This document shows, piece after piece, positions 1,524-15,020 of a stretch of 20,219 nucleotides of DNA (the first letter of the stretch is position 1; every line of letters begins with the position of its first letter). Location: the IMG/VR virus record IMGVR_UViG_3300009159_006031, positions 1 to 20,219 of that record, one strand, 5' to 3'. Position numbers and translations under genes: made by a program. The notes under the pieces are model-generated. The model saw only the letters and a program-made list of their open reading frames with translations, ran no database searches and was not told the origin of the DNA. Source of the stretch: a virus.

Positions 1524-2267
1524 TTATGGGCGTATAGCTTTTAAATTTATAATATCCTTATCGTAGTTCTCTATGATTTTACACTCTCCCCAACCTTTAC
1601 TCTTATTAGCTACAAATTTTCCATTCATAATATTTTCTTGACTAATTTTTCTATTTTTTTGTTGCATGCTAAACCAGTCCTCTCTTAAGTATCTATTTTT
1701 CGCATAAAGGTTATTAGCTATAACTTCAGATTCTAAAGGACGAAGGCCATAGGTCATGCCCAATGCCTTTGCTCTATTGATTAAGTCTGTATCCTGATGT
1801 GAATGTTCCAATAGATCTTCATCGTAACCGCCCAATTTATAAAAATTACTTTTTGTCAAAGCTATCCTGCCAAAAGACCCTCCTTGTGGTTCAAAATACA
1901 TATGAAGTAAACTATTTTTATTTTTATTAAAAGCTTTATCGATTTCTTCCCGCATTCCTAATAAAAAATTATCCACATCTAAATTTACTAAAATTTCTCC
2001 AGAGCCTAACCTATGAGCTATATTTTTAGATTTTGGACAATTATACTCTTTTACATCTAAGACTTTTATAAATTTTAATTTTTCTTCCTCTATATATTTT
2101 TTAAAAGTTTTTGTGCCTAAAACAAAAATCATAGTATCATCTGGACTATTATAGTCTACCAGAACAAGCTCTTCGTCTTCTTTAAGGTTATCTAAATTAG
2201 ATTTTAATGTAAACGCTAATTGCCATAATCTACCATAGCATACTGTACAATAGGAAACTTTTTTCAT
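1524..2267 (-). CDS. Glycosyltransferase, GT-A fold (GT2/GT7-C-like)
   Basis: 247 residues. The N-terminus (VSYCTVCYGR) begins a Rossmann-like nucleotide-sugar-binding half. The DxD metal/nucleotide motif is at Asp97-Val-Asp99 (VNLDVDNF). The acceptor half contains GRIALTKSNFYKLGGYDEDL (residues about 133-152) and HQDTDL, the 'GG-D/E' and acidic motifs of galactosyltransferase-type C-terminal domains. It should move a sugar from a nucleotide donor to an unknown acceptor, perhaps a virion protein, DNA base or host glycan. It is the first gene after a promoter whose -10 box lies 7 nt before the ATG, with no Shine-Dalgarno, so a leaderless mRNA is predicted. It is one of five glycosyltransferases scattered through the window. 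Confidence 0.8.
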   Translation of the reverse strand: MKKVSYCTVCYGRLWQLAFTLKSNLDNLKEDEELVLVDYNSPDDTMIFVLGTKTFKKYIEEEKLKFIKVLDVKEYNCPKSKNIAHRLGSGEILVNLDVDNFLLGMREEIDKAFNKNKNSLLHMYFEPQGGSFGRIALTKSNFYKLGGYDEDLLEHSHQDTDLINRAKALGMTYGLRPLESEVIANNLYAKNRYLREDWFSMQQKNRKISQENIMNGKFVANKSKGWGECKIIENYDKDIINLKAIRP

Positions 2268-2274
2268 TATTTAC

Positions 2275-2303
2275 ATTATAATTAAATTAAATTTATTTGA
2301 CAA
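2275..2303 (-). promoter_or_regulatory. Sigma70-type promoter for the 2267 glycosyltransferase, shared -35
   Basis: On the minus strand, TTGTCA (2303-2298), a 17-nt spacer and a perfect TATAAT (2280-2275) end 7 nt before the ATG at 2267. Its -35 box overlaps the -35 of the divergent plus-strand promoter because the sequence TTTGACAAA is close to palindromic. Confidence 0.75.
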
Positions 2304-2325
2304 ATGTAAATATGTATAATACTAT
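2297..2325 (+). promoter_or_regulatory. Promoter of the structured RNA / nrdAB leader
   Basis: A perfect TTGACA (2297-2302), a 17-nt spacer and TACTAT (2320-2325) fit a sigma70 promoter with a weak -10. Directly overlapping, 2325-2332 reads TATAAATA, the consensus of T4-type late promoters. Either would start transcription near 2332-2340, just before the first hairpin of the RNA. Confidence 0.6.
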
Positions 2326-2331
2326 ATAAAT

Positions 2332-2612
2332 ACATACCGCCCAATTAGCGGATAAGGTTTGTCGTACTCCGTTAAACGATAAGTCTCATTAGTTCGAAAC
2401 GTGGGCAACGCTTAGGAGCTTGCGACCCAGAAACCACTAGCAATAGTGGGAGTGTAGGTGTAAGGGCTAACACGCGATGGATGATCCTACCGACATCCGA
2501 TAAGTGTTAGGGACCGAAAGGTTTACAGACTCAATTGGGAAGTAGAACTAATAGGCTTTCACCAACCCTGCGCAAAGCACAGGGAAAGCTCCGCTTTGAA
2601 GAGCTCATTGGG
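2332..2612 (+). ncRNA. Structured RNA of unknown class upstream of nrdA
   Basis: No reading frame covers this stretch, yet by hand count G+C is 114/240 (about 48%) in 2341-2580, well above the flanks. Helices seen: CCGC 2337-2340 with GCGG 2348-2351; GTCG/CTCC (2361-2370) with GGAG/CGAC (2415-2426); CCACTA-GCAA-TAGTGG (2434-2449); CTAACAC 2467-2473 with GTGTTAG 2504-2510, enclosing GGATG/CATCC; ACC-GAAA-GGT (2513-2522); CCCTG/CAGGG (2566-2584); AGCTC/GAGCT (2587-2605). GTAGG (2454-2458) can pair with CCTAC (2486-2490) in a loop, making a pseudoknot. GNRA loops (GCAA, GAAA) occur only in the plus-strand reading. It may be a freestanding RNA or an nrdAB leader. I could not match it to RNase P, tmRNA, group I intron, cobalamin or purine riboswitch signatures. 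The stretch 2613-2742 is AT-rich and shows no clear terminator or Shine-Dalgarno. Confidence 0.65.
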
Positions 2613-2742
2613 AAGTTGTTATAAAAATACAGATTAGTACACTCTTTATTGAGTTAAATAATAAATGTTAATAAAACTAAATTTTTTTCTTTTTAAATTT
2701 TAAAAAACACTGTAATATAGAGTTCCCCCTATTTTATATAAA

Positions 2743-4989
2743 ATGAATGTTAAGAAAAGAAATAATACTACTGAAAAATTTGATATAGAAAAAATTAACA
2801 AAGTTATTAATTGGGCTATAGATGGATATTCTGGAGTTAGTTTAACAGACATAGAGATAAATGCTAAAATTAATATAACCGATGGAGTTCATACAAAAGA
2901 AATTCATAGCTTATTGATTGAAAGTGCGGCAAATTTAATTTCTATAGAAAAACCAAACTATCAATATGTTGCAGCTAGGCTTCTTAATTATCAATTAAGA
3001 AAAGACGTTTGGAAGGGCAAACATGCGCCAAGACTTTCTGAATTTATAAATAATGGTTTAAAAAATAAGATATATGACCCTGCTATCCTAGAAAAATACA
3101 CAGAAGATGAAATAAATAAACTGGGCGAAATTATAGATCACGAAAGAGACTTTATCTTTACCTATGCTGGTATAAAACAATTATGTGATAAATATTTAAT
3201 AAAAAATAGAACTACCCAACAAATTTACGAAACACCACAGTTTGCTTATATATTAATCTCTGCTTATGCATTTATAAATTATCCAAGCGAAACTAGATTG
3301 ACTTATGTAAGGAAATTTTACGATGCTATTAGTAAGCATAAAATAAATTTGCCAACTCCAATTATGGCAGGAGTAAGAACTTCTAGTAAAAATTACGCGA
3401 GTTGTTGCTTGATTGGGGTAGACGATACGAAAGAAAGCATTACTGCTAGTGCTACGGCAGTTAGTATGGCTACGGCAAATAGATGTGGAATTGGAATTGA
3501 TGTTAGCAGGATTAGAGCAATTGGCGCCCCAATTAAAAATGGGGAAGTCGTCCATACGGGGTTAATTCCATTCTTAAAAATTTATGAGAGTAGCGTGAAA
3601 GCTTGGCAACAAAATGGTTTAAGAGGAGGAAGTGCAACCTGCAATATACAATGGTGGCATTACGAAATTGAAGATGTTGTAGTATTGAAAAATAATGCTG
3701 GAACAGACGACAATCGAGTTCGTAAACTTGATTATACGGTTGGTATGAGCAAATTATTTTATGATAGGGTTTTAAAAGATGAAGATATCATGCTATTTAA
3801 TACTGCCGAAGTGCCAGAGCTTTATGAAGCTTGGGGGACAAAAGACTTTGATAAGATTTATAAAGAATGCGAGTCTAAGAAACTAAAAATTAAAAAGAAA
3901 ATTTCTGCTCGTAAATTATTCTCTCTTATAATAAAAGAAAGAGTTGAAACTGGAAGAATTTATATTCTAAATGTAGATCATGCTAACAATCATGGAGCTT
4001 GGTCTGATAAAGTAACCATGAGCAATCTTTGCACAGAAGTTATTCACCCCACAATTCCACTTAATGACTACCATGATAAAGATGCAGAAATTGGTATGTG
4101 TATTCTTTCGGCAGTTAATATGTTAGAAGTAAAAAACTGGCAAGATTTAGAAAAAGTTTGTGATTTAATTGTAAGATTCCTTGAAGAAATTATAGACATT
4201 CAAGACTACTTCAATTTCGCAGCAGAAAATTTTGCTAAAAAGCGTAGAAGCCTTGGAGTTGGAATCACCAATCTTGCAGCTTTTCTTGCTAAAAATGAAT
4301 TAAAATATAATTCAGATAAGTCTCTTTCGGTAATAGATGAGTGGATGGAGCATTTTCAATACTATCTTTTAAAGAGTAGTTGCCAATTGTCTAAAGAAAA
4401 AGGCAGATGCGAAAAATTTGAAAATACAAAATACTCTAAAGGTATCTTGCCAATAGATACATACAAAGATAAAGTAGACGAATTAGTAAAAAGAAAACTA
4501 TCACTTGATTGGGAGAAACTAAGAAAAGATATCAAAGAATTTGGATTAAGACATTCGACATTATCCTCCTGTATGCCTTGTGAGAGTAGCTCTGTAATTC
4601 AATCTTCTACAAACGGTGTCGAGCCTATTCGTAGTCTTATTACTTATAAAACAAGCAAAATGGGTAAACTTCCAGTTATGGTTCCAGGAATTGGAAAATA
4701 TGATCATAATTATGAATTAGCTTTTGATTTTAAAGATAATTTAGGTTTATTAAAAATAAACGCAGTAATTCAAAAATATATTGATATGGCTATTTCTACT
4801 AATGTGTATTATAATTACAGTCACTATGAAAATCATATATTACCAGACAGCAAAGTTATGAAAGAAATAATGTATGCTTATAGCCTTGGACTAATTAGTT
4901 TGTATTATAATAATACAGACGATGGAGATAAAGAGCAGTCTATGACACAAAAAGAAGATGACTGTGCTAGTGGAGCTTGTAAATTATGA
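2743..4989 (+). CDS. nrdA: Class Ia ribonucleoside-diphosphate reductase, large subunit
   Basis: NrdA reduces ribonucleoside diphosphates to deoxy forms with the NrdB radical subunit. The 748 residues match T4-type NrdA throughout. An ATP-cone-like N-terminus (about 1-92) precedes the barrel. Redox cysteines are Cys221 (NYASC) and Cys453 (GMCILSAVN). The active site holds Asn428, Cys430 and Glu432 (MSNLCTE). PCESSSVIQSSTNG is the usual substrate-loop region. Tyr721-Tyr722 (LYYNN) are the radical-transfer pair, and the shuttle cysteines Cys741 and Cys746 sit in the tail CASGACKL. It appears complete, with no intron or intein. The ATG has no Shine-Dalgarno. It overlaps nrdB by 4 nt (ATGA). The structured RNA lies directly upstream. 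Confidence 0.97.
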   Translation: MNVKKRNNTTEKFDIEKINKVINWAIDGYSGVSLTDIEINAKINITDGVHTKEIHSLLIESAANLISIEKPNYQYVAARLLNYQLRKDVWKGKHAPRLSEFINNGLKNKIYDPAILEKYTEDEINKLGEIIDHERDFIFTYAGIKQLCDKYLIKNRTTQQIYETPQFAYILISAYAFINYPSETRLTYVRKFYDAISKHKINLPTPIMAGVRTSSKNYASCCLIGVDDTKESITASATAVSMATANRCGIGIDVSRIRAIGAPIKNGEVVHTGLIPFLKIYESSVKAWQQNGLRGGSATCNIQWWHYEIEDVVVLKNNAGTDDNRVRKLDYTVGMSKLFYDRVLKDEDIMLFNTAEVPELYEAWGTKDFDKIYKECESKKLKIKKKISARKLFSLIIKERVETGRIYILNVDHANNHGAWSDKVTMSNLCTEVIHPTIPLNDYHDKDAEIGMCILSAVNMLEVKNWQDLEKVCDLIVRFLEEIIDIQDYFNFAAENFAKKRRSLGVGITNLAAFLAKNELKYNSDKSLSVIDEWMEHFQYYLLKSSCQLSKEKGRCEKFENTKYSKGILPIDTYKDKVDELVKRKLSLDWEKLRKDIKEFGLRHSTLSSCMPCESSSVIQSSTNGVEPIRSLITYKTSKMGKLPVMVPGIGKYDHNYELAFDFKDNLGLLKINAVIQKYIDMAISTNVYYNYSHYENHILPDSKVMKEIMYAYSLGLISLYYNNTDDGDKEQSMTQKEDDCASGACKL

Positions 4990-6050
4990 AAACAGTATTA
5001 AATTTTAAAAACGTAGACTTTACTAAACAACCATTGTTTCTTGGCGAGGATTTAAATTTGCAAAGATATGATAGGTTTAAATATCCAATATTTTTTGAGC
5101 TATTCAAAAAACAAAATGAAAACTTCTGGTGGCCACATGAAATAGCTTTAGGAAAAGATAGAAGCGATTATAAAAATTTGACTGACACCGAAAGATTTGT
5201 ATTTGATAGTAATTTAAGATTCCAAACTCTTGGAGATAGTATGTTATCTAGAAGCATACACTCATTAAAAGATTACGTTAGTAATCCAGAGCTAGAAATA
5301 TGCATGAATACTTGGGCTCAATTTGAAGGCATTCATAGTTATTCTTATTCTTATCTTTTAAATAATGTTCATCCAGATCCTACTAAATTTTTTGATAGTA
5401 TCATGGAGGATAAAGAAATAACAGGTCGCGCTCAATTAATTAGAGATAATTTTGATAAAATTCTTGGTAGCGACGAAAAGAAAGACCCTAAACAAAAGAT
5501 TTTTGATGCTATTCTTTCTATTAATGTAATGGAAGGACTCGTGTTTTATGTTTCTTTTGCTTGTTCTTTTTATTTTGGATATCGGGGAAAGATGGAAGGT
5601 AATTCTAAAATTATAAAATTCATTCAAAGAGATGAAGCTTTGCATTTTGCTACCTCTCAAAATCTATTGAAGATACTTCGTGACGAAGATAAAGAAGGCT
5701 TTACATCTATTGTAAAGAAAAATGAAGATAAGATATACGCTTTCTATGAACAGGCCGCGAAGAACGAAAGTGAATGGTCTCAGTATCTCTTTAGTAAAGG
5801 CAGTTTACTTGGATTAAATGCTGACGTTCTAGATGGCTACTCTAAGTGGCTTTGTGATAGCCGATTAAGAAGCTTAGGCTATAAGAAGATATTTAATCAA
5901 AAAGATAATCCTATAGCTGGATGGCATGACAGCTATTTGGACAGTAGCAAAGTGCAAGTTGCGCCACAAGAAACTGAGATATCAAGCTATAAAGTGGGCG
6001 CAAGGAAGACGGACATAGAAGACGAAGATTTTGGTGATTTAAAACTCTAA
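4986..6050 (+). CDS. nrdB: Class Ia ribonucleotide reductase, small (radical) subunit
   Basis: NrdB carries the diiron centre and tyrosyl radical for NrdA. In the 354 residues the metal ligands are visible as Asp84 (TLGDSM), Glu114 and His117 (FEGIHS), Glu183 (NVMEG), and Glu217 and His220 (RDEALH). The radical tyrosine is Tyr121 (IHSYSY), the place of Tyr122 in E. coli, so this is a canonical class Ia subunit, not a metal-only or Tyr-less variant. The C-terminal tail EDEDFGDLKL should dock on NrdA. Translation is coupled to nrdA by the ATGA overlap. Confidence 0.97.
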   Translation: MKTVLNFKNVDFTKQPLFLGEDLNLQRYDRFKYPIFFELFKKQNENFWWPHEIALGKDRSDYKNLTDTERFVFDSNLRFQTLGDSMLSRSIHSLKDYVSNPELEICMNTWAQFEGIHSYSYSYLLNNVHPDPTKFFDSIMEDKEITGRAQLIRDNFDKILGSDEKKDPKQKIFDAILSINVMEGLVFYVSFACSFYFGYRGKMEGNSKIIKFIQRDEALHFATSQNLLKILRDEDKEGFTSIVKKNEDKIYAFYEQAAKNESEWSQYLFSKGSLLGLNADVLDGYSKWLCDSRLRSLGYKKIFNQKDNPIAGWHDSYLDSSKVQVAPQETEISSYKVGARKTDIEDEDFGDLKL

Positions 6051-6079
6051 TATCTATATATTAATGTGTAATTATCTAT

Positions 6080-6412
6080 GTGAATTTAGATATTACTATT
6101 ATATTTAACTTAGTCTTAGGGGCACTTTCTTTCTTAGGGGGATGGCTATTCACTAGAGTATTTTCTCTTTTTGACAAACAAGAGACTTTAATGAAAGATA
6201 TAAATGATAAAACATTTAGCGATTTTATAACATTAAGAAAAGAAATGGAATTAGAAGGCAGAAAACATCAACAAGAGATAGCAGATCTAGCTTTAAAAAT
6301 TTCAACTACTTATGTAACGAAAGAATCATTTGAAACTTATTTTGATAGAATAGAAGCTAAATTAGATCGTAATTTTGATATAATACAAAATCATTTTAAT
6401 AGAAAAAATTAG
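6080..6412 (+). CDS. Small membrane protein with coiled coil
   Basis: 110 residues: one transmembrane helix at about 8-30 (IIFNLVLGALSFLGGWLF), then a long charged helix (about 33-75) and a second charged segment, likely a coiled coil. The layout resembles small phage inner-membrane proteins such as holin- or spanin-like accessories, but there is no diagnostic motif. The start is GTG at 6080; the ATG two bases earlier is immediately closed by a stop in its frame. TGTAAT lies 7 nt upstream, a weak version of the leaderless-promoter layout seen elsewhere here. It lies 29 nt after nrdB. Its stop codon overlaps that of the convergent gene (TTAG at 6409-6412). Confidence 0.65.
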   Translation: MNLDITIIFNLVLGALSFLGGWLFTRVFSLFDKQETLMKDINDKTFSDFITLRKEMELEGRKHQQEIADLALKISTTYVTKESFETYFDRIEAKLDRNFDIIQNHFNRKN

Positions 6413-6759
6413 TCTTGTCTAGATGAAGGGTGCTTTTTGCCTTTTCTTTTCTTGCTCCAATTATCAAAATATTTCTGTTTTAATGGGTCTTTACCAAGGA
6501 GCTTTTCTCTTTTTGCTGATAACTCAGCACTTCTATCCCAAAGATCACCTACGGTGCCTTTTTTTCTGCCAGTGAAATCACTAAACTCTTTTGCTGTACA
6601 ATCAGCTTTCAAAGTCCCTTCTGTATTCAACTGAGGCGAAGTAAAAATCCTGTTCCATTTAACTCCAGAATCGTCTTGATATTCATGTTTTTCATGAATA
6701 CTTTGAATTAAAGATATGATTTTATTACTTTTGGGATGTTGATATAAATATTCAGGCAT
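6409..6759 (-). CDS. FmdB-like phage protein lacking zinc-ribbon cysteines
   Basis: 116 residues starting MPEYLYQHP, the 'P.Y.Y' opening of FmdB-type small regulatory proteins. The remainder (WNRIFTSPQL, KKGTVGDLWDRSAELSAKR, DPLKQKYFDNWSKKRKGKKH) fits a recurrent phage version of that family in which a basic tail follows. Only one cysteine is present, so the zinc ribbon of cellular FmdB proteins is not formed. The role is unknown; the lysine-rich C-terminus suggests nucleic-acid or capsid contact. The ATG overlaps the end of the upstream glycosyltransferase by 8 nt, so it is probably translated from the same mRNA. Confidence 0.6.
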   Translation of the reverse strand: MPEYLYQHPKSNKIISLIQSIHEKHEYQDDSGVKWNRIFTSPQLNTEGTLKADCTAKEFSDFTGRKKGTVGDLWDRSAELSAKREKLLGKDPLKQKYFDNWSKKRKGKKHPSSRQD

Positions 6760-7834
6760 AATGTTTTAATATATTATCAACTAGTCTTGTAGCAGAAAAC
6801 TCTTCTTGCAATTTTAAACCATTTTTATTTATTTTATTTGATTTTATTTTTTTAATAGCTTTTTCGCATCCATCTATAAAATCATCATCATTGAATGTAT
6901 AAATATTACCTTGATTAAACCTTTGCCCTTTGTGAAAAAACATGTTGTCATATGCTTCAATTTTACCAGATGGTTCTACTAACACAGAGTTATCTTTATT
7001 AGCCCAAGATTTATAAGAATGAGCATTTAAGATTACAGCCTGTTTTCCTAGAGCTACAGAATGAAATTCTGGTAATCCCCAGCCCTCTCCACCGCTCATG
7101 CCAATTATTACATCTGCACTATTTAAATAGTCATTATATAAAGCATTATTTTCCATAAAATTTAAAAATGATATATTAAAGTACTCTTTACCTTCTAAAA
7201 TAGAATTTAATAATTGTTGTTGATCTTGAGGTTTTAAGAATGGATTATAGATTGCACATTGTAGAAAATAGTCTCTATTATTACCGTATTTCTTAAGCCA
7301 ACTCTGTATAACCTTTTTATGATTTTTTCTTTTTTCTAATTTACCTGCTAAATTAAAAGTTATACGATCCTCCATATATGTTTTATTAGTATTAAAAAAG
7401 TTATATTTATCAAAAGCTAATGGTACATATTCTATATTGTTGCAACCAGCATTTTTAAAAACTTCACAAGTGTACTCAGAAGAGAACAAGACTTTGTGGT
7501 TATTTTTTACAATATTTATTTCGGCTTGCGTAGGTTGATCAAGTTCATAAAAAGAAAATAATAATTGCTCTTTAGCGAAAGACTCTAGGGAGCCGTTGAT
7601 ATGCCATAATTTAAAAATCCTATCATTCCTAGAATATCTGGAGTCATTATCTTTTAATGATATATTAACCCAATCAAGAAATTTCTTTTCGACATTTTGA
7701 GTAGAAAAATCTATCTGACTTCCAATTGGAAATAGAATTACATCTGTTTCCCTTTTGAAGAGTTCTTTTAAAATTAACGCAGAAGTTTGCCCAAAAGATA
7801 CGGAGTTAATTGGCAAATTCAAGCATAAACTCAC
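6752..7834 (-). CDS. Glycosyltransferase, GT-B fold (family 4-like)
   Basis: 360 residues. The N-terminal half begins LNLPINSVSFGQTS. The C-terminal donor-binding half opens with FNLAGKLEKRKNHKKVI (about 160-176) and contains GMSGGEGWGLPEFHSVALGK (residues 245-264), the acidic-glycine-rich nucleotide-sugar motif of family 4 (Glyco_transf_1) enzymes. The probable start is GTG at 7834, inside a GTGA overlap with the upstream gene, so translation is coupled. An in-frame ATG is not available nearby. Donor and acceptor are unknown. Confidence 0.85.
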   Translation of the reverse strand: MSLCLNLPINSVSFGQTSALILKELFKRETDVILFPIGSQIDFSTQNVEKKFLDWVNISLKDNDSRYSRNDRIFKLWHINGSLESFAKEQLLFSFYELDQPTQAEINIVKNNHKVLFSSEYTCEVFKNAGCNNIEYVPLAFDKYNFFNTNKTYMEDRITFNLAGKLEKRKNHKKVIQSWLKKYGNNRDYFLQCAIYNPFLKPQDQQQLLNSILEGKEYFNISFLNFMENNALYNDYLNSADVIIGMSGGEGWGLPEFHSVALGKQAVILNAHSYKSWANKDNSVLVEPSGKIEAYDNMFFHKGQRFNQGNIYTFNDDDFIDGCEKAIKKIKSNKINKNGLKLQEEFSATRLVDNILKHYA

Positions 7835-8157
7835 AGCAGATCTTCTTCCTCTTCAATTACTTTCTCTACAACCTTTTCGACAACTTTCTTTTGGGCCTTG
7901 ACAGGGACTTCAGAAGCGGTAGGCGCTTCAACTTGTGTTTTTTTAGATCCATCAATTTTTGACGAGAGATATACTCTGTAATCTGGAGCTTTAGGATTCT
8001 CTTTTTTAAATTTATTAGCAAAAATAACGATCTCTACTTGTTCCCCAAGTTCATCTTTAAAATAACCAGAAAGATATTTCTGAGTTTTCCCTTCTCTTTT
8101 CCACAATGCACCGATGTCTCTTTTTTGCCAATCATTTTGTTGTTTATTGTTTTCCAT
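7831..8157 (-). CDS. DUF736-like phage protein with acidic tail
   Basis: 108 residues. Positions about 14-66 (IGALWKREGKTQKYLSGYF, then VIFANKFKKENPKAPDYRVY) match the DUF736 pattern, a small OB-like domain found in phages and mobile elements. Residues 67-95 are a flexible Pro/Lys/Val-rich stretch, and the protein ends VIEEEEDLL, an acidic tip reminiscent of single-stranded-DNA-binding proteins. A role in DNA metabolism is plausible but inferred. It has its own perfect promoter and a Shine-Dalgarno (AGGAGA 4 nt before the ATG), the strongest expression signals in the window, suggesting an abundant product. GTGA overlap with the next gene. Confidence 0.7.
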   Translation of the reverse strand: MENNKQQNDWQKRDIGALWKREGKTQKYLSGYFKDELGEQVEIVIFANKFKKENPKAPDYRVYLSSKIDGSKKTQVEAPTASEVPVKAQKKVVEKVVEKVIEEEEDLL

Positions 8158-8205
8158 ATTGTCTCCTATTGTTTATATTATATCCGAGTTAGTGTTACTT
8201 GTCAA
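8158..8205 (-). promoter_or_regulatory. Perfect sigma70 promoter plus Shine-Dalgarno leader
   Basis: On the minus strand, TTGACA (8205-8200), exactly 17 nt, then TATAAT (8182-8177). The predicted start near 8170 gives a 13-nt leader containing AGGAGA before the ATG at 8157. The promoter sits inside the last codons of the upstream sigma-factor gene. It is the one strong promoter here that has a proper ribosome-binding leader. Confidence 0.88.
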
Positions 8206-8802
8206 TTTATTCTTTAAGAAATCTTTGCCCTTATTATGAATATTAATGACAGTTTGAGTGCTTAATTTCATTTTCTCGCCAATATCTGCCCAAGACATCA
8301 ATCTCTTACTGTTGAAATATCTTAATTTATATATTTTTTTAATTCTTTTATCTTTGCATCTATTTAGGATAGAGAATATCATATCAGCTTTTTCTTTAAA
8401 AGCTATAGTTTCATTATTAGCTTTGATTTGATTTTTTTCTATAATATGTTTGATTGCGGTGTCTTCCATAGTTATGTGACGATTGTTTTTATTGATTGTA
8501 TTTAGACAATGATATCTCATTTGATTACCTAACCAAGTAGAAAATTTAACATTTTTATCAGGGTTAAAGTTCATTACTGATTTATATATGATATAAGTTT
8601 TCTCTGCGATTACATCTTCTGGGTCAATCCCAGACTGCACCATATTATAATAATATTTTTTAATCATTTTATGGCATATGCCGCTATGTCTTAATTCGAG
8701 TTCTTTAAGAGCATGGCTATTGTTTCGATTCAATACATCTTGAATCAAGGCGTTATCATTTGTTGTTTTTATATTCATATTAAAGTTGTGAAATTCTTTC
8801 AT
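8173..8802 (-). CDS. Phage sigma-70-family factor (late-sigma-like)
   Basis: 209 residues from the upstream ATG. Residues about 20-110 look like sigma region 2: a helix with LKELELRHSGICHKMIKKYY, then DPEDVIAEKTYIIYKSVMNF and FSTWLGNQMRYHCLNTINK, the '-10 recognition/core-binding' layout. Residues about 155-200 are a region 4 helix-turn-helix (YFNSKRLMSWADIGEKMKLS, then TQTVINIHNKGKDFL). Size and architecture resemble T4 gp55 and related factors that direct late transcription. An alternative start at 8778 (MNIKTTND) begins one base after the kinase stop; neither start has a Shine-Dalgarno. The gene overlaps the upstream kinase by 23 nt if 8802 is used. Confidence 0.8.
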   Translation of the reverse strand: MKEFHNFNMNIKTTNDNALIQDVLNRNNSHALKELELRHSGICHKMIKKYYYNMVQSGIDPEDVIAEKTYIIYKSVMNFNPDKNVKFSTWLGNQMRYHCLNTINKNNRHITMEDTAIKHIIEKNQIKANNETIAFKEKADMIFSILNRCKDKRIKKIYKLRYFNSKRLMSWADIGEKMKLSTQTVINIHNKGKDFLKNKLTSNTNSDII

Positions 8803-9364
8803 AAATTGATTTTAAATGTCTTTGAGTTAATTCATATAAAACATTTGTATCTTGGCAAGTATCCCAGCACACAGAGATATCTGCAACGGCTTTTAATTTA
8901 TTATCATTTGATTTTTCCTCTATATTAGCTGGTGGCACGAAAGATCCGTCATCCAGTTTTCTAGATAAATGTATTAAAACTCCGTTATAAGACTTAAGCC
9001 ATGCATATTCATCGTCTTTATATTCGATATATCTGACATCAGTTATAATTGGTATTGTTTTATCTTTTTTAAGCCTTTCTATTTTTTTGTCTAATTGAGA
9101 AGTCCAGTAGGTTCCTTGACTTTGAGATCTTCTGCATTTACCATAAGCAACCATTAAAGGTCTAATAGTTTCTTTTTCTTGGTCATTGCATTTAAATAGG
9201 TCTATTTTAAATTTGTCTTTAGTAAAATCATTAAGTTCATTTTTTAAATCATCAGCGAAAGCTAATCTTTCAGACTTTATATTTCTTTCTTCTAAATATT
9301 TCTTTAGGATAGAATAAAAAGTGTCTTTCCCAGACCTTGCTACTCCAGTAATGCCTATTATCAT
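8780..9364 (-). CDS. Deoxynucleoside monophosphate kinase (T4 gp1-like)
   Basis: 194 residues with a P-loop GVARSGKD at residues 7-14. AFADDLKNEL is a substrate-side helix as in T4 gp1. RPLMVAYGKCRRSQSQGTYW fits the 'R.LMQ.LG...R' motif of that family. IPIITDVRY supplies the Walker-B-like acidic strand, and NGVLIHLSRK follows. The expected reaction is dNMP plus ATP to dNDP, feeding the RNR and deaminase products into the dNTP pool. The length is slightly below T4 gp1 (241). A perfect promoter ends 6 nt before the ATG, so the mRNA should be leaderless. The gene is divergent from the dCMP deaminase, 57 nt away. Confidence 0.82.
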   Translation of the reverse strand: MIIGITGVARSGKDTFYSILKKYLEERNIKSERLAFADDLKNELNDFTKDKFKIDLFKCNDQEKETIRPLMVAYGKCRRSQSQGTYWTSQLDKKIERLKKDKTIPIITDVRYIEYKDDEYAWLKSYNGVLIHLSRKLDDGSFVPPANIEEKSNDNKLKAVADISVCWDTCQDTNVLYELTQRHLKSIYERISQL

Positions 9365-9370
9365 TTAATG

Positions 9371-9399
9371 ATTATAGACATAATAAATTACCTTGTCAA
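9371..9399 (-). promoter_or_regulatory. Perfect sigma70 promoter, leaderless layout, for the dNMP kinase
   Basis: On the minus strand, TTGACA (9399-9394), a 17-nt spacer, TATAAT (9376-9371), then 6 nt and the ATG at 9364. Transcription starting about 7 nt after the -10 box would begin at the A of the start codon. A weaker divergent box, TATGAT (9411-9416), lies 5 nt before the dCMP deaminase ATG on the other strand. Confidence 0.88.
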
Positions 9400-9421
9400 G
9401 GCGTAACTTCTATGATAATAT

Positions 9422-9853
9422 ATGAGTATGCAAAATAGAATTTCTTTTGAAGAAATGGCAATAAATATTGCTGTGGAATGTGCAAAAAGATCAGAGGACA
9501 TGCACAGAAAAGTGGGATGTTGTATTTTGAATAAAGAAGGTAAGATACTTTCCACAGGATATAATGGGTTATTGCCCAAAGTAGACAAAAACGATCTTTT
9601 TTGGAAAGATAGAGATTATAGAAGAAAGTTCATTATCCATGCAGAAATAAATGCTTTAGCAAGAATAAATAGAGACGATGAGCCTTATATTGCAGCCTGC
9701 ACTTTACTTCCATGCTCAAGCTGCGCCCTAAATATAGCCTCATATGGAATTAAAAAAATCATTTATACAGAAGACTATAGTTTTGATGAAGGCGCTAAGG
9801 AGATATTTAAGTTCTATAATATGGATCTTTTAAAACTTGACAGAAAAATATAA
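9422..9853 (+). CDS. Deoxycytidylate (dCMP) deaminase
   Basis: 143 residues of the zinc-dependent cytidine/deoxycytidylate deaminase family. Zinc and catalytic residues are His73 and Glu75 (HAEINA) and Cys98 and Cys101 (PCSSC). The N-terminal SEDMHRKVGCCILNKEGKIL and STGYNGL are typical of dCMP deaminases. The reaction dCMP to dUMP supplies thymidylate synthase (not in this window). It is shorter than the T4 enzyme (193). No Shine-Dalgarno; TATGAT ends 5 nt before the ATG. A second in-frame ATG lies at 9428. The last codons contain the -35 box of the next gene's promoter. Confidence 0.93.
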   Translation: MSMQNRISFEEMAINIAVECAKRSEDMHRKVGCCILNKEGKILSTGYNGLLPKVDKNDLFWKDRDYRRKFIIHAEINALARINRDDEPYIAACTLLPCSSCALNIASYGIKKIIYTEDYSFDEGAKEIFKFYNMDLLKLDRKI

Positions 9854-9865
9854 AAATATTAGTAT
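9837..9865 (+). promoter_or_regulatory. Promoter for the IMPDH/GMPR-family gene, leaderless layout
   Basis: Perfect TTGACA (9837-9842) within the last codons of the dCMP deaminase gene, a 17-nt spacer, TAGTAT (9860-9865), then 6 nt before the ATG at 9872. There is no Shine-Dalgarno between. Confidence 0.72.
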
Positions 9866-9871
9866 TCATAT

Positions 9872-10978
9872 ATGCAACAAAACTTCAAAGAAGCTCTAGG
9901 CTACGACGATATTTCTCTTTTGCCTAATTTTTCAGATATCTCTTCTAGAAAAGAAGTTGATACGTCCACAAAAATTTCTAGAAATAATCAGATTAAAATA
10001 CCAATTATTTTATCTCCTATGGATACCGTTTCTTCAGTCAAGTCATGCATTAAAATGAATAAAATTGGTGCGGCTGGCGTTTTGCATAGATTTATGCCAA
10101 TCGAAGAGCAAAAAGTTAAATCAAAGATGATTAAAGACGAAAGTGGTTTATCCATAAATGCAATTGGATTAAAAGACGCAGAAGAAAGAATTAATCTCAC
10201 TAAGAAATATACAGACATTTACTTTCTTGACACAGCGAATGGATTATCAAAAAACGCAGAAGACTTTCTCAGATGGTACAAGACTAGTAATTTTACTCAA
10301 GATATTATAATTGGAAATACTCTAACTAAAGAAAGCGTTTATAGACTAGCAAATTTAAAAGCAGACGGATTTAGACACCTTATCGGGCCAGGCTCGATGT
10401 GCTTAACGCAAGTAAAAACTGGCATTGGTTGCCCAAGCGTAACTGGTAATTTTTACGCTTGGCAATCAGTAAAAAATTGGGAACTTTCTCAAGTCGATTT
10501 ATTTAAGCAAGACAAACCAAATCCAGACCATAGGCCAAGTATATTAGCAGATGGTGGAATTCGTTATCCAAAAGATTTAGTTAAAGCTATAGCGAGTGGG
10601 TGTGACGCAATAATATGCGGTAAAATCTTTGCTGGATTGCAAGACACGGTCGATGACGAAGACATAGTGGAAAAGAATGGCAAAAAATATGCAAAATATA
10701 GAGGCATGGCTTCTAAAGATGTCGTAGAAGATTATCAATTATACGACGGGACGAAAAAGAATCTCTTCGTAGAAGGAGACAACACTTTAATTCCATTATC
10801 AGACAATACCATAGAAGATGTTGTTTACGATTTCGCAAATGGACTAAGAAGCGCCATGAGTTATCTAGGTTTTAGAAAAATGGAAGATATGCGTGGTGGA
10901 CTTTGGACGAATAAAATCATCGCAGTTAGATCAACAATAAATAATATGTACGAGGGATTTTCTCATGGAAAAATGTGA
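9872..10978 (+). CDS. IMP dehydrogenase/GMP reductase family enzyme, CBS-less, GMP-reductase-like
   Basis: 368 residues forming a single TIM barrel. EALGYDDISLLPNF opens the family signature, PMDTV is at 49-53, and the catalytic loop GPGSMCLTQ (172-180) holds Cys177. ADGG (226-229) and ICGKIFAG (248-255) bind phosphate. There are no CBS domains, and the length fits GMP reductase (about 345). KTGIGCPS after the catalytic loop and NGKKYAKYRGMAS (269-281) resemble GMP reductases, and the IMPDH flap Arg-Tyr pair is not evident in YQLYDGTKKN (288-297). GMP reductase converts GMP to IMP plus ammonia using NADPH; IMPDH runs IMP to XMP. I favour the former, but sequence alone leaves this open. The adenylosuccinate synthetase downstream would use the IMP. 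Confidence 0.8.
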   Translation: MQQNFKEALGYDDISLLPNFSDISSRKEVDTSTKISRNNQIKIPIILSPMDTVSSVKSCIKMNKIGAAGVLHRFMPIEEQKVKSKMIKDESGLSINAIGLKDAEERINLTKKYTDIYFLDTANGLSKNAEDFLRWYKTSNFTQDIIIGNTLTKESVYRLANLKADGFRHLIGPGSMCLTQVKTGIGCPSVTGNFYAWQSVKNWELSQVDLFKQDKPNPDHRPSILADGGIRYPKDLVKAIASGCDAIICGKIFAGLQDTVDDEDIVEKNGKKYAKYRGMASKDVVEDYQLYDGTKKNLFVEGDNTLIPLSDNTIEDVVYDFANGLRSAMSYLGFRKMEDMRGGLWTNKIIAVRSTINNMYEGFSHGKM

Positions 10979-11306
10979 TATTAAATACGTAAAATACATA
11001 TGCTTGATTCTCATAGCTTTTTGGACTATGAATAAATCTCAGGCACAAGTAGCTTATCAAAAAATGGACCAATCCACAAGATCAGTAGAACTTTATATAG
11101 TTAAGGCTCAGGTTCAATCAAATGCCGAGCAAATTAAATACTTGAACGAACAAAAGAAGTCATACTCCTTGTTTAATAAAAATGAGTCGATAGCAAGGTC
11201 TAGACAACAAGCAATTATTTCCGCCAAAGAAAATGAAACTTTTAGATTAAATCATAAGATTTTTCTTATAAATAAAGCACAGCAAACGCCGTTGACAATA
11301 AGATAA
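10965..11306 (+). CDS. Small exported protein of unknown function
   Basis: 113 residues. The N-terminus has a basic start, a hydrophobic core (YICLILIAFWTM) and SQA-Q at about 25-28, a convincing signal peptide. The mature part is about 85 residues, polar and predicted helical (KAQVQSNAEQIKYLNEQKKS), without cysteine after cleavage. It overlaps the previous gene by 14 nt and has GAGGG 8 nt before the ATG, one of the few Shine-Dalgarno sites here, as expected for an internal operon gene. It might act in the periplasm or in lysis; no family is recognised. The -35 of the next promoter lies in its last codons. Confidence 0.65.
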   Translation: MEKCDIKYVKYICLILIAFWTMNKSQAQVAYQKMDQSTRSVELYIVKAQVQSNAEQIKYLNEQKKSYSLFNKNESIARSRQQAIISAKENETFRLNHKIFLINKAQQTPLTIR

Positions 11307-11320
11307 TTTATTTGTATAAT
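11292..11320 (+). promoter_or_regulatory. Perfect sigma70 promoter, leaderless layout, for the SEC-C gene
   Basis: TTGACA (11292-11297), exactly 17 nt, TATAAT (11315-11320), then AAAACC and the ATG at 11327. This geometry decides the start: the open frame begins earlier at 11312, but that ATG-less extension would lie inside the -10 box. The promoter would drive the SEC-C protein and the overlapping adenylosuccinate synthetase. Confidence 0.88.
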
Positions 11321-11326
11321 AAAACC

Positions 11327-11551
11327 ATGGAACAGTCGTCTTTGTTTAAATCTGATGTACCGCTATATGTAAGAGGAACAGATAGCTCTCCAATACATAG
11401 ACTCGCCCCAAAGCTAGGTAGAAATTATCTCTGTCCATTCGAAGGAAAGAAATTTAAAAGATGCTGCGGAATAGACGGATCAAATTTTTGTAAAAAACTG
11501 TTAAATGAATTTATAGAAAAAAATACGCCTAAAAATGATCAAAGCAGTTGA
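11327..11551 (+). CDS. SEC-C motif mini-protein with one zinc ligand missing
   Basis: 74 residues. Residues 30-48 (LGRNYLCPFEGKKFKRCCG) are a SEC-C motif, the zinc-binding tail seen on SecA and many small proteins, whose usual form is GRN..CPCGSGKK.K.CCG. Here Cys36 and Cys46-Cys47 remain, but the second Cys of 'CPC' is Phe and one residue is lost. Zinc binding may therefore be impaired or use another ligand, such as Cys55. SEC-C motifs generally mediate protein or ribosome contacts; the role here is unknown. The start was chosen from the promoter 6 nt upstream. The 3' end overlaps the synthetase gene by 17 nt. Confidence 0.75.
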   Translation: MEQSSLFKSDVPLYVRGTDSSPIHRLAPKLGRNYLCPFEGKKFKRCCGIDGSNFCKKLLNEFIEKNTPKNDQSS

Positions 11552-12527
11552 TATTATATTTGGTTTAGCTTGGGGAGATGAAGGAAAAGGAAAGATAAGC
11601 AACGCTATATCTAAAAATTACGATATAGTTTGTCGCTGGAATGGTGGCCCCAATGCAGGTCACACAGTTTATATTAATGATAAAAAATATAAAACTCATG
11701 TCATACCGTGCGGGATTTTCCAAAACAAACTTAGCGTTATAGGGCCTAATTGTGTGATTAATGTAGACAAATTTTATGACGAAATAGATTATCTTGAAAA
11801 AGAAGGATTTGATACATCTTTAATTAAAGTTAGCCCCAAGGCTCATATTATAACAGAAAAACATATTGAATATGATCTTAAATTCTTAAAAACAAAATTT
11901 GGAACCACTGGCCAAGGTATTGCTCCAGCATATTCAGATAAGGCATTAAGAATTGGGAAACTTGCTCAAAACTATTTAGATAAAAAATATCTTTGGGACG
12001 GAAGACTCTATGGAGAAATTCTTTGCGAAGGAGCTCAAAGTTTTTGGCTAGATATAAATTATGGAGATTATCCTTATGTTACTAGTAGTGAAACTCTTCC
12101 ATATTCAGCTTGCTCTTTAGGTTTTAGTCCAAAAAAAGTAAGGAATATAATTGGCGTAGCAAAAATTTATGATACAAAAAGTGGGGTAGATCCATTATTT
12201 CCAGAATCTCTATGGCAAGACCAGGAATTGAATATGATAATTGAACTAGGTAAAGAGTTTGGCTCAACAACTGGTAGAAAGAGAATGGTAAATTGGCTTA
12301 ATTTAAATAAACTAATTGATGCAATTAGAATTTCTGGAGTAACAAAACTTATAATTAATAAATGCGATATTTTCGAGCAAATGGACACTTACAAATTATA
12401 TCAAAATAATGATTTATACAAATTTGATACGTTAAGCGCAATGCAGTCTTTTATTAAAACATATCTAAACCATTCCATTAATGATTATATAGAAGTTATC
12501 TTTTCTGGAAACAAAGAATCTATTTAA
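11535..12527 (+). CDS. purA: Adenylosuccinate synthetase (PurA/PurZ family, short form)
   Basis: 330 residues. PurA joins IMP and aspartate using GTP. Seen: WGDEGKGK (13-20) with Asp15 in the place of E. coli Asp13; NAGHT with catalytic His43; GTTGQGIAPAYSDK (123-136); EGAQ and YPYVTSSET (179-187); GSTTGRKR (243-250) with Arg248 and Arg250 of the aspartate-binding loop; and NKCD (275-278) for guanine. The length is about 100 below bacterial PurA, like archaeal enzymes and phage PurZ. PurZ, which makes the precursor of 2-aminoadenine from dGMP, typically replaces the catalytic Asp by Ser or Thr; this protein does not. The loop normally TRVG.GPFPTE reads TKSGVDPLFPES, a departure near the nucleotide site. 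It overlaps the SEC-C gene and probably shares its promoter. Confidence 0.88.
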   Translation: MIKAVDIIFGLAWGDEGKGKISNAISKNYDIVCRWNGGPNAGHTVYINDKKYKTHVIPCGIFQNKLSVIGPNCVINVDKFYDEIDYLEKEGFDTSLIKVSPKAHIITEKHIEYDLKFLKTKFGTTGQGIAPAYSDKALRIGKLAQNYLDKKYLWDGRLYGEILCEGAQSFWLDINYGDYPYVTSSETLPYSACSLGFSPKKVRNIIGVAKIYDTKSGVDPLFPESLWQDQELNMIIELGKEFGSTTGRKRMVNWLNLNKLIDAIRISGVTKLIINKCDIFEQMDTYKLYQNNDLYKFDTLSAMQSFIKTYLNHSINDYIEVIFSGNKESI

Positions 12528-12545
12528 AATAGTGTAAACTATTAT

Positions 12546-12761
12546 GTGAGTAACCAAAGCGAAGCCTTGGCAATATGCTCTGAATTTTCAGACGAATACG
12601 GGGTTGATTCAAAAGATTCAAACACTATTATAGTCTATACTAAAGGCGAATATACAAACGAATTAACAAATCTTCTTGATAGAAAAAATTATAAATTAAA
12701 GAAATTTCAAACATACGGGGACGAAGTCATAATATACTTTGTCCCAAAAAATAAAAATTAA
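12546..12761 (+). CDS. Small protein of unknown function
   Basis: 71 residues with a GTG start; the overlapping ATG at 12544 is closed at once by a stop. The sequence alternates helix and strand (EALAICSEFSDEYGV, NTIIVYTKGEY, KKFQTYGDEVIIYFVPK), consistent with a compact alpha/beta domain. No motif is recognised. TAAACT ends 5 nt before the GTG, a weak leaderless-type -10. The stop codon overlaps that of the convergent thioredoxin gene (TTAA at 12758-12761). Confidence 0.55.
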   Translation: MSNQSEALAICSEFSDEYGVDSKDSNTIIVYTKGEYTNELTNLLDRKNYKLKKFQTYGDEVIIYFVPKNKN

Positions 12762-13030
12762 TTTAAAATTTGATTTAATCTAGCCTGACTCACCATCCCA
12801 TTGAATCTGTCCACTAAAGCTCCGTCTTTTAATACTACAAAAGCTGGCACGGAGTTTATTTGATAAGCTTGAGCCATATGGCGATCAGAATCTACGTCGA
12901 TCTTCATTAGATTCACTTTATCTGAATTACGGGTAATAAAACTATCAATTAGAGGCTTCATCATTTTGCATGGCCCACACCAAGAAGCACTAAAATACAT
13001 TAAATCAATTTTTTTTTGTGCGCGCGGCAT
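12758..13030 (-). CDS. Thioredoxin
   Basis: 90 residues, a short single-domain thioredoxin. The active site is WCGPC with Cys18 and Cys21. INSVPAFVVLKDG (58-70) supplies the cis-Pro (Pro62), and MKIDVDSD is the usual central strand. It may reduce the phage ribonucleotide reductase, which keeps its C-terminal shuttle cysteines, or other disulfides. It is last in a minus-strand set, beginning 2 nt after the DUF1360-like gene's stop, with only a weak AAAGAG ahead of the ATG. Confidence 0.93.
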   Translation of the reverse strand: MPRAQKKIDLMYFSASWCGPCKMMKPLIDSFITRNSDKVNLMKIDVDSDRHMAQAYQINSVPAFVVLKDGALVDRFNGMVSQARLNQILN

Positions 13031-13032
13031 CT

Positions 13033-13323
13033 TTACTCTTTGTATTTAATAAAATGGTTTCGAACAAAAATTAAATTAATAAAAAACCCAGTGAAACTAC
13101 AAAGTATGTTAGAGACGATTGGATAAGTCAATTCTTGTAGTGGATTGATAAAAAAAGACAGAGCCAGAGAAACCCAGAAACTACTGCACTCATGACAAAG
13201 CAAGGGTCGTCGAATGTAAGGTATTTTTGCTATAAAATTTCTAAATGGTCTTGAGACTTCAGTATCAGACCAAGCGTAAGTTAATCCTAAACAGAGAAAT
13301 AAATATATTACAAAAGTCAACAT
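13033..13323 (-). CDS. DUF1360-like membrane protein
   Basis: 96 residues with an N-terminal membrane segment (about 2-18), a central LLCHECSSFWVSLALSFF (41-58), and a C-terminal hydrophobic stretch (about 68-86). A 'C..C..FW' pair at the start of a membrane helix after a polar 'SRPFR' segment is the DUF1360 pattern, found in phage and bacterial membrane proteins of unknown role. Start and preceding stop overlap as TAATG. Lying beside thioredoxin, the Cys43/Cys46 pair could be redox-active or bind metal; this is inference. Confidence 0.65.
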   Translation of the reverse strand: MLTFVIYLFLCLGLTYAWSDTEVSRPFRNFIAKIPYIRRPLLCHECSSFWVSLALSFFINPLQELTYPIVSNILCSFTGFFINLIFVRNHFIKYKE

Positions 13324-13760
13324 TATAAGAAATAAACTTCTAGAAACTCACCTTTGTCTAGAACAGAAAATGATCTAAAAGGTATGCCTTTTTCATTTAC
13401 AAACTTATTAAAATCTTCCCAAGCTTTTGGACCTTTAGGGACTTGATAAATATTACTAATGCTTATGTCTTTTGCATTTTCAAGTTTTTGTCTATTGGCC
13501 TCTTCTGATTCTTTAATAATCTTATCCATTGTAGCTTTTTGCTCTTTTATTTCTTCCATATTCAAGATGAAATCAATAAAATCCTTGTCGCCCTCTACAT
13601 ATTTTTTATTCAAATGGGCAGAAACTCTACCTCGGCATGAACAGTTCGGGTTGAATTTAGCGCTAGTCAGATCAGCTAAAATATCTGGATATTTTGCTTT
13701 TAAGGCTTCAAAAATTTTCTCATTTTTTACAAGAATGTCTAAATATGGTGATATATTCAT
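13323..13760 (-). CDS. Protein of unknown function
   Basis: 145 residues. The N-terminal third is helical with a CSCRGRV patch (40-46). Residues about 60-98 are a charged helix (MEEIKEQKATMDKIIKESEE), possibly a coiled coil. The C-terminal segment (GPKAWEDFNKFVNEKGIPFR, then VLDKGEFLEVYFL) looks like a small alpha/beta unit. No family is recognised. TATAAT ends 6 nt before the ATG without a Shine-Dalgarno, so it is probably the first, leaderless gene of the set running to thioredoxin. Confidence 0.6.
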   Translation of the reverse strand: MNISPYLDILVKNEKIFEALKAKYPDILADLTSAKFNPNCSCRGRVSAHLNKKYVEGDKDFIDFILNMEEIKEQKATMDKIIKESEEANRQKLENAKDISISNIYQVPKGPKAWEDFNKFVNEKGIPFRSFSVLDKGEFLEVYFL

Positions 13761-13766
13761 ATTTGT

Positions 13767-13795
13767 ATTATACTAAGTCAAGTTTTTAATTTCTA
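13767..13795 (-). promoter_or_regulatory. Promoter for the 13760-12758 gene set, leaderless layout
   Basis: On the minus strand, TAGAAA (13795-13790), 17 nt, TATAAT (13772-13767), then 6 nt and the ATG at 13760. The nearby TTGACT at 13783-13778 is too close to the -10 to serve as its -35. Confidence 0.65.
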
Positions 13796-14337
13796 ATTTT
13801 TTTAATAAATTCTACCATCTTTTGTTTTGAAAAGTCATTTTTCATAACATTAACACAATAACATACAAATTCAACATTTCCCTTGATATATCCTATATTT
13901 GGATCGATCCTATCAAGGCTTAATTTAGTTGGGCTTTTCTTTATATCCGCATCTTGAGAGCTTCTGGGTAATTCAAGAACTATACTTGTATAAGAGCATA
14001 ATCCATTTTGTTTTTCTAAGAGTTGTTTCAAATATTCAAGAGTTAAATCCGTTTCTTCCCCCCTCTCTTTGCTTCTTGACCTGGCTTTATTTAAAGAATA
14101 CTTAAATGGACTATATTCATCTAATCTATTCGCTTCATGACCCTTCAATAAATTAATATTTCCTTTGTTTTTTTCTAATTTTTGAGGATTATTCTTATAA
14201 TCAGCTTTTCCAGAACATTTTAAACTACAATAAAACTTACTTTGACCAGCTTTAATTTTTCTATTATAATCGCTTTGCCTTACTTCGCGTTCTTTGCTAC
14301 AAGTGGCGCAAATTATTTTTGTTTTTTTGATATTCAT
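13786..14337 (-). CDS. HNH-family endonuclease with zinc-ribbon N-terminus
   Basis: 183 residues. Cys10, Cys13, Cys37 and Cys41 (CATC and CSLKC) form a likely zinc ribbon. The C-terminal part (about 95-180) contains LCSYTSI, then LSLDRIDPNIGYIKGNVEFV (139-158) and NVMKNDF with Asn163. This is the form of the HNH subfamily in which 'DRID....GY..GNV..V...N..K' replaces the usual His-Asn-His. Such genes are common in phages as freestanding homing endonucleases or small nucleases. It sits just downstream of the tmRNA on the same strand. TATAAT ends 6 nt before the ATG. Confidence 0.78.
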   Translation of the reverse strand: MNIKKTKIICATCSKEREVRQSDYNRKIKAGQSKFYCSLKCSGKADYKNNPQKLEKNKGNINLLKGHEANRLDEYSPFKYSLNKARSRSKERGEETDLTLEYLKQLLEKQNGLCSYTSIVLELPRSSQDADIKKSPTKLSLDRIDPNIGYIKGNVEFVCYCVNVMKNDFSKQKMVEFIKKIRN

Positions 14338-14343
14338 ATAAGG

Positions 14344-14349
14344 ATTATA
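14344..14349 (-). promoter_or_regulatory. -10 box for the HNH gene
   Basis: TATAAT on the minus strand ends 6 nt (CCTTAT) before the ATG at 14337. No convincing -35 is present at 16-18 nt spacing (AGAAAA at 17). It follows the leaderless geometry of the other first genes. Confidence 0.5.
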
Positions 14350-14375
14350 TATAGTTACGATACGTTTTTTCTAAT

Positions 14376-14433
14376 AAAAATGCAGACAGAGGGATTCGTT
14401 TACTTGGACCCGAGAGGAATTGAACCTCTGTCT
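14376..14433 (-). terminator. Terminator-like hairpin competing with the tmRNA 3' end
   Basis: On the minus strand AGACAGAGG (14433-14425) can pair with CCTCTGTCT (14392-14384), a perfect 9-bp stem across a loop of about 32 nt, followed by GCA and five T (14380-14376). The 5' arm is the start of the tmRNA T-arm, so this terminator and the tRNA-like fold exclude each other. It could end tmRNA transcription before processing. Confidence 0.5.
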
Positions 14434-14791
14434 TTTAAAAATCTAAATTAAAATACTACAAGTTTAGTTCTTTTTGTTTTTAGCTTTGTATAGATAAAGA
14501 GCAAACATACTCAGCGATTTTATTTTTGATACTTAATATTAATAGAATAAAAAAACTACTAATAATAAGACATCTAATTACGCAATATCCCAATAGATGT
14601 GTCAAGGGTATCACGCTGTAACTTAAGCTACAGAAGCGGTCATCTCAACAAGAGAAACTCTTGCTGAAATATGACCTTTATATTTTGCTGTTTTGGCAGT
14701 TAATATAAATTGAAACTTTTTAAGGAGTCCTCGATTCAACCTCCACTTGCATTTCAATTTATTTCTTTAAAATCGAAACCAGTACGGGCCC
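14405..14791 (-). ncRNA. ssrA: tmRNA (transfer-messenger RNA)
   Basis: tmRNA rescues stalled ribosomes by adding a degradation tag. The 5' end GGGCCCG pairs with CGGGTCC (14412-14406) as a 7-bp acceptor stem with G3-U70, the alanine identity pair, and discriminator A; CCA is not encoded. TACTGGTTTCGAT after the 5' strand is the conserved tmRNA start. The T-arm is AGAGG-TTCAATT-CCTCT, preceded by ACTAAACTTGTAGTA, as in E. coli tmRNA. Pseudoknot 1 is GGAG/CTCC with GTTGAA/TTCAAT, then 11 nt to the resume codon GCC (14697). The tag frame has 24 codons, starting AKTAKYKGHI and ending EMTASVA, with TAA at 14625-14623. That stop lies in a CTGTA/TACAG hairpin, as usual. The 387-nt length is normal. 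Confidence 0.93.
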
Positions 14792-14811
14792 AATTAGAAT
14801 GAACTATCTTT

Positions 14812-14840
14812 ATATTACATTAGATTTTGGATTTTATCAA
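14812..14840 (-). promoter_or_regulatory. Promoter of the tmRNA
   Basis: On the minus strand, TTGATA (14840-14835), 17 nt, TAATAT (14817-14812). Transcription would begin near 14805, about 14 nt before the mature 5' end, leaving a short leader for RNase P to remove. Confidence 0.55.
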
Positions 14841-14850
14841 TATTTTTTAG

Positions 14851-14856
14851 TATAAT
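14851..14856 (+). promoter_or_regulatory. -10 box for the two small genes and following glycosyltransferases
   Basis: TATAAT ends 5 nt before the ATG at 14862. TTGGAT at 18-nt spacing is a poor -35. It overlaps the divergent tmRNA promoter region. Confidence 0.5.
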
Positions 14857-14861
14857 TCACT

Positions 14862-15020
14862 ATGGACAAAATATTAAACTTATTAAACCAAATATTAGAA
14901 AAAAAGGAATATGATGATTCTTTGGTAAGGGAGGCTTTACAAACTGGCGATAATTGGGATATTTATCATTTAAAATTATTAAAAACGCTATTAGAGGAAT
15001 ATAACAATGCCAAAAAGTAA
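14862..15020 (+). CDS. Small protein, 52 residues, unknown function
   Basis: An open frame of 52 codons beginning MDKILNLLNQILEKKEYDDS, predicted almost wholly helical, with a conserved-looking TGDNWDIYHL and a leucine-rich end (KLLKTLLEEY). It may be a small regulator or adaptor. Support: TATAAT 5 nt before the ATG and a 14-nt overlap with the next small gene, whose Shine-Dalgarno it contains. No family is recognised. Confidence 0.55.
   Translation: MDKILNLLNQILEKKEYDDSLVREALQTGDNWDIYHLKLLKTLLEEYNNAKK

Follow-up and report, generated by a model that had tools for sequence, protein, structure and literature searches.

In phage lambda, the cI transcript made from PRM has the A of its AUG codon as the first nucleotide. 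The late promoters of phage T4 have only a −10 element, TATAAATA, which is read by gp55. The published precedent for a leaderless phage is the Thermus phage phiYS40 (Sevostyanova et al. 2007, listed in PMC12340547), whose middle and late transcripts are reported to be mostly leaderless, with IF2 raised and IF3 lowered (PMC3594737). Among cellular genomes, those of Actinobacteria and Deinococcus-Thermus commonly contain TA-led leaderless genes, in which a TA-like signal precedes the start by about 10 bp (PMC3160421, PMC12340547).

The DNA studied here (the window), virus record IMGVR_UViG_3300009159_006031, is 20.2 kb long and has a G+C content of about 32%. It appears to come from a phage that, like phiYS40, is large and AT-rich and has predicted promoters abutting the start codons of many genes. 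Both phiYS40 and the clade of the window carry IMPDH/GMP reductase-like and nucleotide-metabolism genes, and the kinship seen between them is confined to these shared genes. On the other hand, the leaderless transcripts of phiYS40 were shown by experiment, and its host belongs to a phylum in which leaderless genes abound, whereas the clade is known from sequence. The clade resembles the cellular TA-led genes in having a −10-like box some 10 bp ahead of the start and no Shine-Dalgarno (SD) sequence, and differs from them in being a phage lineage, in its strong −35 box at a 17-bp spacing, and in a second motif, GTGTAA(T). The cI gene has the same start geometry, but it is one gene, compared to dozens of gene families in the clade. 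The second motif resembles the T4 late promoters in being −10-only, in its AT-rich context, and in the presence of a phage sigma factor. In comparison with T4, however, GTGTAA(T) takes the place of the late-promoter sequence and abuts the start codon, a placement that is absent from a 50-kb stretch of T4.

With the same gene caller, no leaderless peak was observed in T4, P-SSM2, Cr30 and phage G (50 kb each) or in the whole of HTVC008M. There is a modest leaderless −10 peak in phiYS40, and the GTGTAA motif is absent from the 50 kb tested. P23-45 was dropped as a comparator, as TATAAT-like sites are almost absent from it. An earlier reading of the window, made from the sequence only, called phage-wide use of such promoters less described; this is fair, although phiYS40 had already been published (PMC3594737). 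No description of the phage clade or of the GTGTAA motif was found in the literature searched, an absence that is not proof.

Sigma-70-type boxes in the window

The sequence-only reading placed exact TATAAT boxes 5–7 nt before six start codons, and TAGTAT similarly before a seventh, at 9872. All seven boxes are present (Table 1). For the 27 gene starts of the window, 0.13–0.2 exact TATAAT boxes are expected at gaps of 5–7 (about 0.1 in the earlier estimate), and the Poisson probability of six is about 6e-9 to 7e-8, or 1.4e-6 under an assumed 80% AT, so the boxes are far more frequent than by chance, as had been claimed. The TTGACA or near-TTGACA boxes reported at 17 nt are also confirmed. A 17-bp spacing of the two boxes, within the 16–18 bp of sigma-70 promoters, is found at 9364, 9872 and 11327 (with TTGACA) and at 2267 (with TTGTCA), and is not found at 13760, 14337 and 14862.

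Table 1. Promoter boxes, motifs and the sigma factor gene of the window. The gap is the number of nucleotides separating the box from the start codon.
Feature	Position	Strand	−35 box	Spacing	−10 box or motif	Gap	Start codon	Remarks
Sigma-70 site, glycosyltransferase-like gene (1524-2267)	2265..2303	-	TTGTCA 2303-2298	17 bp	TATAAT 2280-2275	7	ATG 2267	
Sigma-70 site, dNMP kinase	9362..9399	-	TTGACA 9399-9394	17 bp	TATAAT 9376-9371	6	ATG 9364	
Sigma-70 site, dCMP deaminase	9393..9430	+	TTGTCA 9393-9398	17 bp	TAATAT 9416-9421	6	ATG 9428	
Sigma-70 site, IMP dehydrogenase/GMP reductase-like gene	9837..9874	+	TTGACA 9837-9842	17 bp	TAGTAT 9860-9865	6	ATG 9872	
Sigma-70 site	11292..11329	+	TTGACA 11292-11297	17 bp	TATAAT 11315-11320	6	ATG 11327	
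−10 box	13758..13772	-			TATAAT 13772-13767	6	ATG 13760	No convincing −35
−10 box	14335..14349	-			TATAAT 14349-14344	6	ATG 14337	No convincing −35
−10 box	14851..14864	+			TATAAT 14851-14856	5	ATG 14862	No convincing −35
Non-leaderless consensus promoter	8155..8205	-	TTGACA 8205-8200	17 bp	TATAAT 8182-8177		ATG 8157	19-nt leader with AGGAG
GTGTAA	6066..6082	+			GTGTAA 6066-6071	8	GTG 6080	
GTGTAA	12532..12548	+			GTGTAA 12532-12537	8	GTG 12546	ATG at equal distance in relatives
GTGTAA	1500..1518	-			GTGTAA 1518-1513	10	ATG 1502	
GTGTAA, looser	17608..17628	+			GTGTAA 17608-17613	12	ATG 17626	
Phage-encoded sigma factor (Sigma70_r2)	8173..8802	-						Candidate reader of GTGTAA

The −35 boxes of the divergent dNMP kinase (9364) and dCMP deaminase (9428) genes overlap in the palindrome CCTTGTCAAGG (9391–9401). 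The dCMP deaminase gene has two in-frame ATG codons after its TTGTCA-17-TAATAT promoter, at gap 0 (9422) and at gap 6 (9428). The latter is preferred, as the homologs begin with M..RISF, which fits 9428; the longest-ORF start at 9422 is probably wrong and 9428 the true start. Position 9422 was one of three weaker versions of the pattern listed in the earlier reading. The sites are present at all three, but 9422 probably stands for 9428, and the other two (6080 and 12546) carry the GTGTAA motif (see below).

One consensus promoter in the window is of the SD-led kind and belongs to the gene at 7831–8157. Both layouts are present among the relatives of this gene family. In the window and some relatives, TTGACA-17-TATAAT is followed by a short leader with AGGAG. 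In other relatives, which have the leaderless-type form, TTGACA-17 is followed by a TATAAT-like box located 6–7 nt before the ATG.

Placement of the boxes across the clade

The clade sample comprises 104 related loci, which came from two protein-level searches of viral contigs; in addition, four long relatives (132–172 kb) were analyzed whole. The genome-wide −10 peak proposed earlier is observed in these relatives. Among 1665 de-duplicated ATG starts, TATAAT is found at gap 6 before 80, compared to a background of about 6–10, and TTGACA-like boxes at gap 29 (6 + 6 + 17) before 120; the modal spacing of the two boxes is 17. With both boxes required, and at most one mismatch in each, gap 6 accounts for 116 starts (43 protein families) and gaps 5–8 together for 194 (61 families). 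No single gap from 13 to 40 exceeds 5 starts or 4 families. In single contigs the exact TATAAT peak is small, and the −35 peak at gap 28–30 is clear in all four long contigs. Internal ATG codons have no comparable TATAAT peak at gaps 5–8; the exception is an effect of codon phase, seen at gaps 3 and 6.

The four contigs were also scanned from the promoter side, without gene calls. An ATG is located at gap 6 from 56 of the 521 sigma-70-like sites and at gap 7 from 24, with a background of 8.5 for each, while GTG, TTG, CTG, ATA and ATT show no enrichment at gap 6. An in-frame stop codon is present within 60 nt upstream of 183 of the 194 leaderless-type genes (within 36 nt for 165), and the reading frame therefore has no long upstream extension.

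SD cores (scored as AGGA, GGAG or GAGG) are found at 3% of the leaderless-type genes, at 16% of starts without a sigma-70 site, and at 40% of genes with a promoter 15–40 nt upstream, with 4.5% in shuffled sequence. The difference between 40% and 3% indicates that SD sequences are used where a leader exists. Among all genes of the four long contigs, 18–27% have an SD core, compared to 46–49% in HTVC008M and T4, and no recognized signal is found at 60–72% of the starts. The promoter-to-start sequence pattern is established both in the window and in the clade.

Two other explanations of this pattern concern the boxes and the starts themselves. TATAAT is a frequent word in the window (65 matches, with 48.5 expected), and single window sites without a −35 box could still be chance matches in AT-rich sequence. 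At the level of the clade, however, such an origin is refuted and has hardly any probability left, as the −10 and −35 peaks each span just a few positions, co-occur at 17 bp, unite 43 families at one gap, and are missing before internal ATGs. It is also very unlikely that the starts are misassigned, with the true starts downstream and ordinary leaders on the mRNAs. The caller picks the first ATG in each frame, and the 9422/9428 case shows that errors of a few codons are possible, but this correction creates a leaderless start and removes none. Moreover, the P-loop of dNMP kinase begins at residue 4, three residues past the Met, which places the start codon no further downstream than 9364. The relatives of the IMPDH-like protein align from residue 1–5 onward, those of the PurA-like protein align from residue 1, and only ATG among the tested codons peaks at gap 6 from the promoter.

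The GTGTAA motif and the phage sigma factor

GTGTAA is enriched at gaps 8–10 before starts in the clade and is nearly absent before internal ATGs. The class precedes about 57 families (with the nrdA C-terminus left out), has no −35 box, and has an SD core in 0 of 129 cases. A T is favored after the core, and a T is present at position −1 in 80%, the preference for this base before starts being strongest in this class. Of 192 GTGTAA sites in the four contigs, a scan that, like the per-contig counts of the comparator test, still includes nrdB, 27 have an ATG at gap 8, 18 at gap 9 and 15 at gap 10, compared to 3.2 expected, and nine have a GTG at gap 8, compared to 1.0. The apparent rank of nrdB as the commonest GTGTAA gene was rejected. 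The word there corresponds to conserved C-terminal codons of nrdA (G-A-C-K-L), and nrdB was left out of later family counts because its GTGTAA is nrdA coding sequence.

The long contigs contain 60, 35, 52 and 45 copies of GTGTAA, with 75, 51, 45 and 50 expected. The word is therefore not over-represented genome-wide and is unusual in its placement only. It is mostly located outside the small-gene-rich region where the sigma-70 sites cluster (odds ratio 8.9), with a p value of 8e-8 that is optimistic because the regions were picked after the map was viewed. In both window genes of this class that start with GTG, the start codon is overlapped by ATGTGA, an ATG with an immediate stop codon (6078–6083 and 12544–12549).

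A protein with a Sigma70_r2 domain is found in all eight large relatives. That of the window has weak matches to PHROG sigma families and no tblastn match in the phage collection. Our hypothesis is that GTGTAA(T) is probably read by this sigma factor of the phage. The assignment of the class to many late genes is a guess, as few of its genes have an assigned function.

Proposed leaderless expression and other features of the clade

We consider it probable (about 0.8) that a substantial fraction of the mRNAs of this phage lineage have no 5′ leader and are made from two promoter classes. In the first, TTGACA-17-TATAAT would be recognized by host RNA polymerase of the sigma-70 type. The usual start point, the seventh base past the −10 box, would then be the A of the ATG, and ribosomes would initiate at the 5′-terminal AUG without an SD sequence. 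Both the exact start of transcription and translation from the bare AUG are predictions from this well-known promoter geometry. In the second class, which lacks a −35 box, GTGTAA(T) would act from the corresponding position in front of other genes, many of them probably late, with a phage sigma factor as the probable reader. Operon-internal genes and a minority of first genes would keep SD sequences. The leaderless strategy put forward in the sequence-only reading is thus backed, as a prediction, by the −10 and −35 peaks, the SD depletion, the upstream stop codons and the ATG peak, as a substantial yet not an exclusive mode of expression. Against this reading, three of the seven window sites have no −35 box, most starts in the long contigs (the 60–72% given above) have neither signal, and genes for IF3 and S21, possible aids to leaderless translation, were not found in eight relatives. 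We see even odds for a broader proposal, in which start-abutting promoters would be a general design in two programs, host sigma-70 and a phage sigma factor on an undescribed −10-only GTGTAA(T) element, with much of the proteome leaderless and genes switching between leaderless and SD-led forms in evolution.

GTGTAA could instead be a signal other than a promoter, such as an element for translation initiation or mRNA processing, which is the less probable view but carries some weight. The motif is without a −35 box and a proven reader, also occurs in tightly packed structural genes at a distance of about 14 nt from the start, and tolerates GTG starts at gap 8. However, its position is that of the leaderless −10 box, the class has no SD core and a prevalent T at −1, the AT-rich flanks without a −35 box resemble those of −10-only promoters, the T4 late promoters among them, and the clade conserves a phage sigma factor. 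Very short leaders of 1–5 nt, with short-leader initiation, are rather improbable in place of leaderless mRNAs. They would accord with the range of gaps, which extends from 5 to 9 for the sigma-70 sites and from 7 to 12 for the GTGTAA sites. On the other hand, the modal gap of 6, with T at −1 and A at +1, fits transcription beginning with the A of the ATG, and RNA polymerase could pick this A at gaps 6–8 alike.

The two promoter classes suggest that leaderless expression can be a genome-wide habit in uncultured AT-rich phages; if so, the clade would be among few such phage lineages. The promoter-start rule helps to set start codons in annotating the clade, and homologous genes in leaderless and SD-led forms make exchange between the forms open to study. 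If GTGTAA is a true sigma-dependent promoter, it would represent a new promoter specificity with the cognate sigma factor already in hand.

When genome contigs were searched for the host with the IMPDH-like protein, the only match was a distant one, to an archaeal MAG, at 30% identity. One relative (L129:9301-11760, + strand) encodes an 819-residue protein with a PATR repeat and a sub-threshold PEP-CTERM motif, which is unusual in a phage and is possibly a weak hint to the host. Kinship to T4-like phages was hinted at by NrdA/NrdB (nearest HTVC008M, 64% DNA identity) and is not supported by the search for the contractile sheath (PF04984), which gave no match while its control was detected. A search for the T4-type capsid protein Gp23 had no match, but its control likewise gave none.

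A one-piece tmRNA gene is located at 14405–14791 on the − strand of the window (Rfam RF00023, 107.6 bits), with the tag AKTAKYKGHISARVSLVEMTASVA. All eight large relatives also have a tmRNA, and the 24-residue tag is conserved in those examined. The tmRNA gene and the gene at 14862 are divergent (14791–14862), and by eye a TTGATA-17-TAATAT sequence upstream of tmRNA resembles its promoter. The IMP dehydrogenase/GMP reductase-like (9872–10978) and adenylosuccinate synthetase-like PurA (11535–12527) genes co-occur in the clade, and the latter matches a PHROG of 2-aminoadenine phages. A SET-domain protein, usually a lysine methyltransferase fold, is encoded at 17002–17532 (− strand). The gene at 17626–19560 (+ strand) lies in a stretch of raised G+C content (0.45) and encodes a cysteine- and proline-rich protein of 644 residues with no Pfam match.
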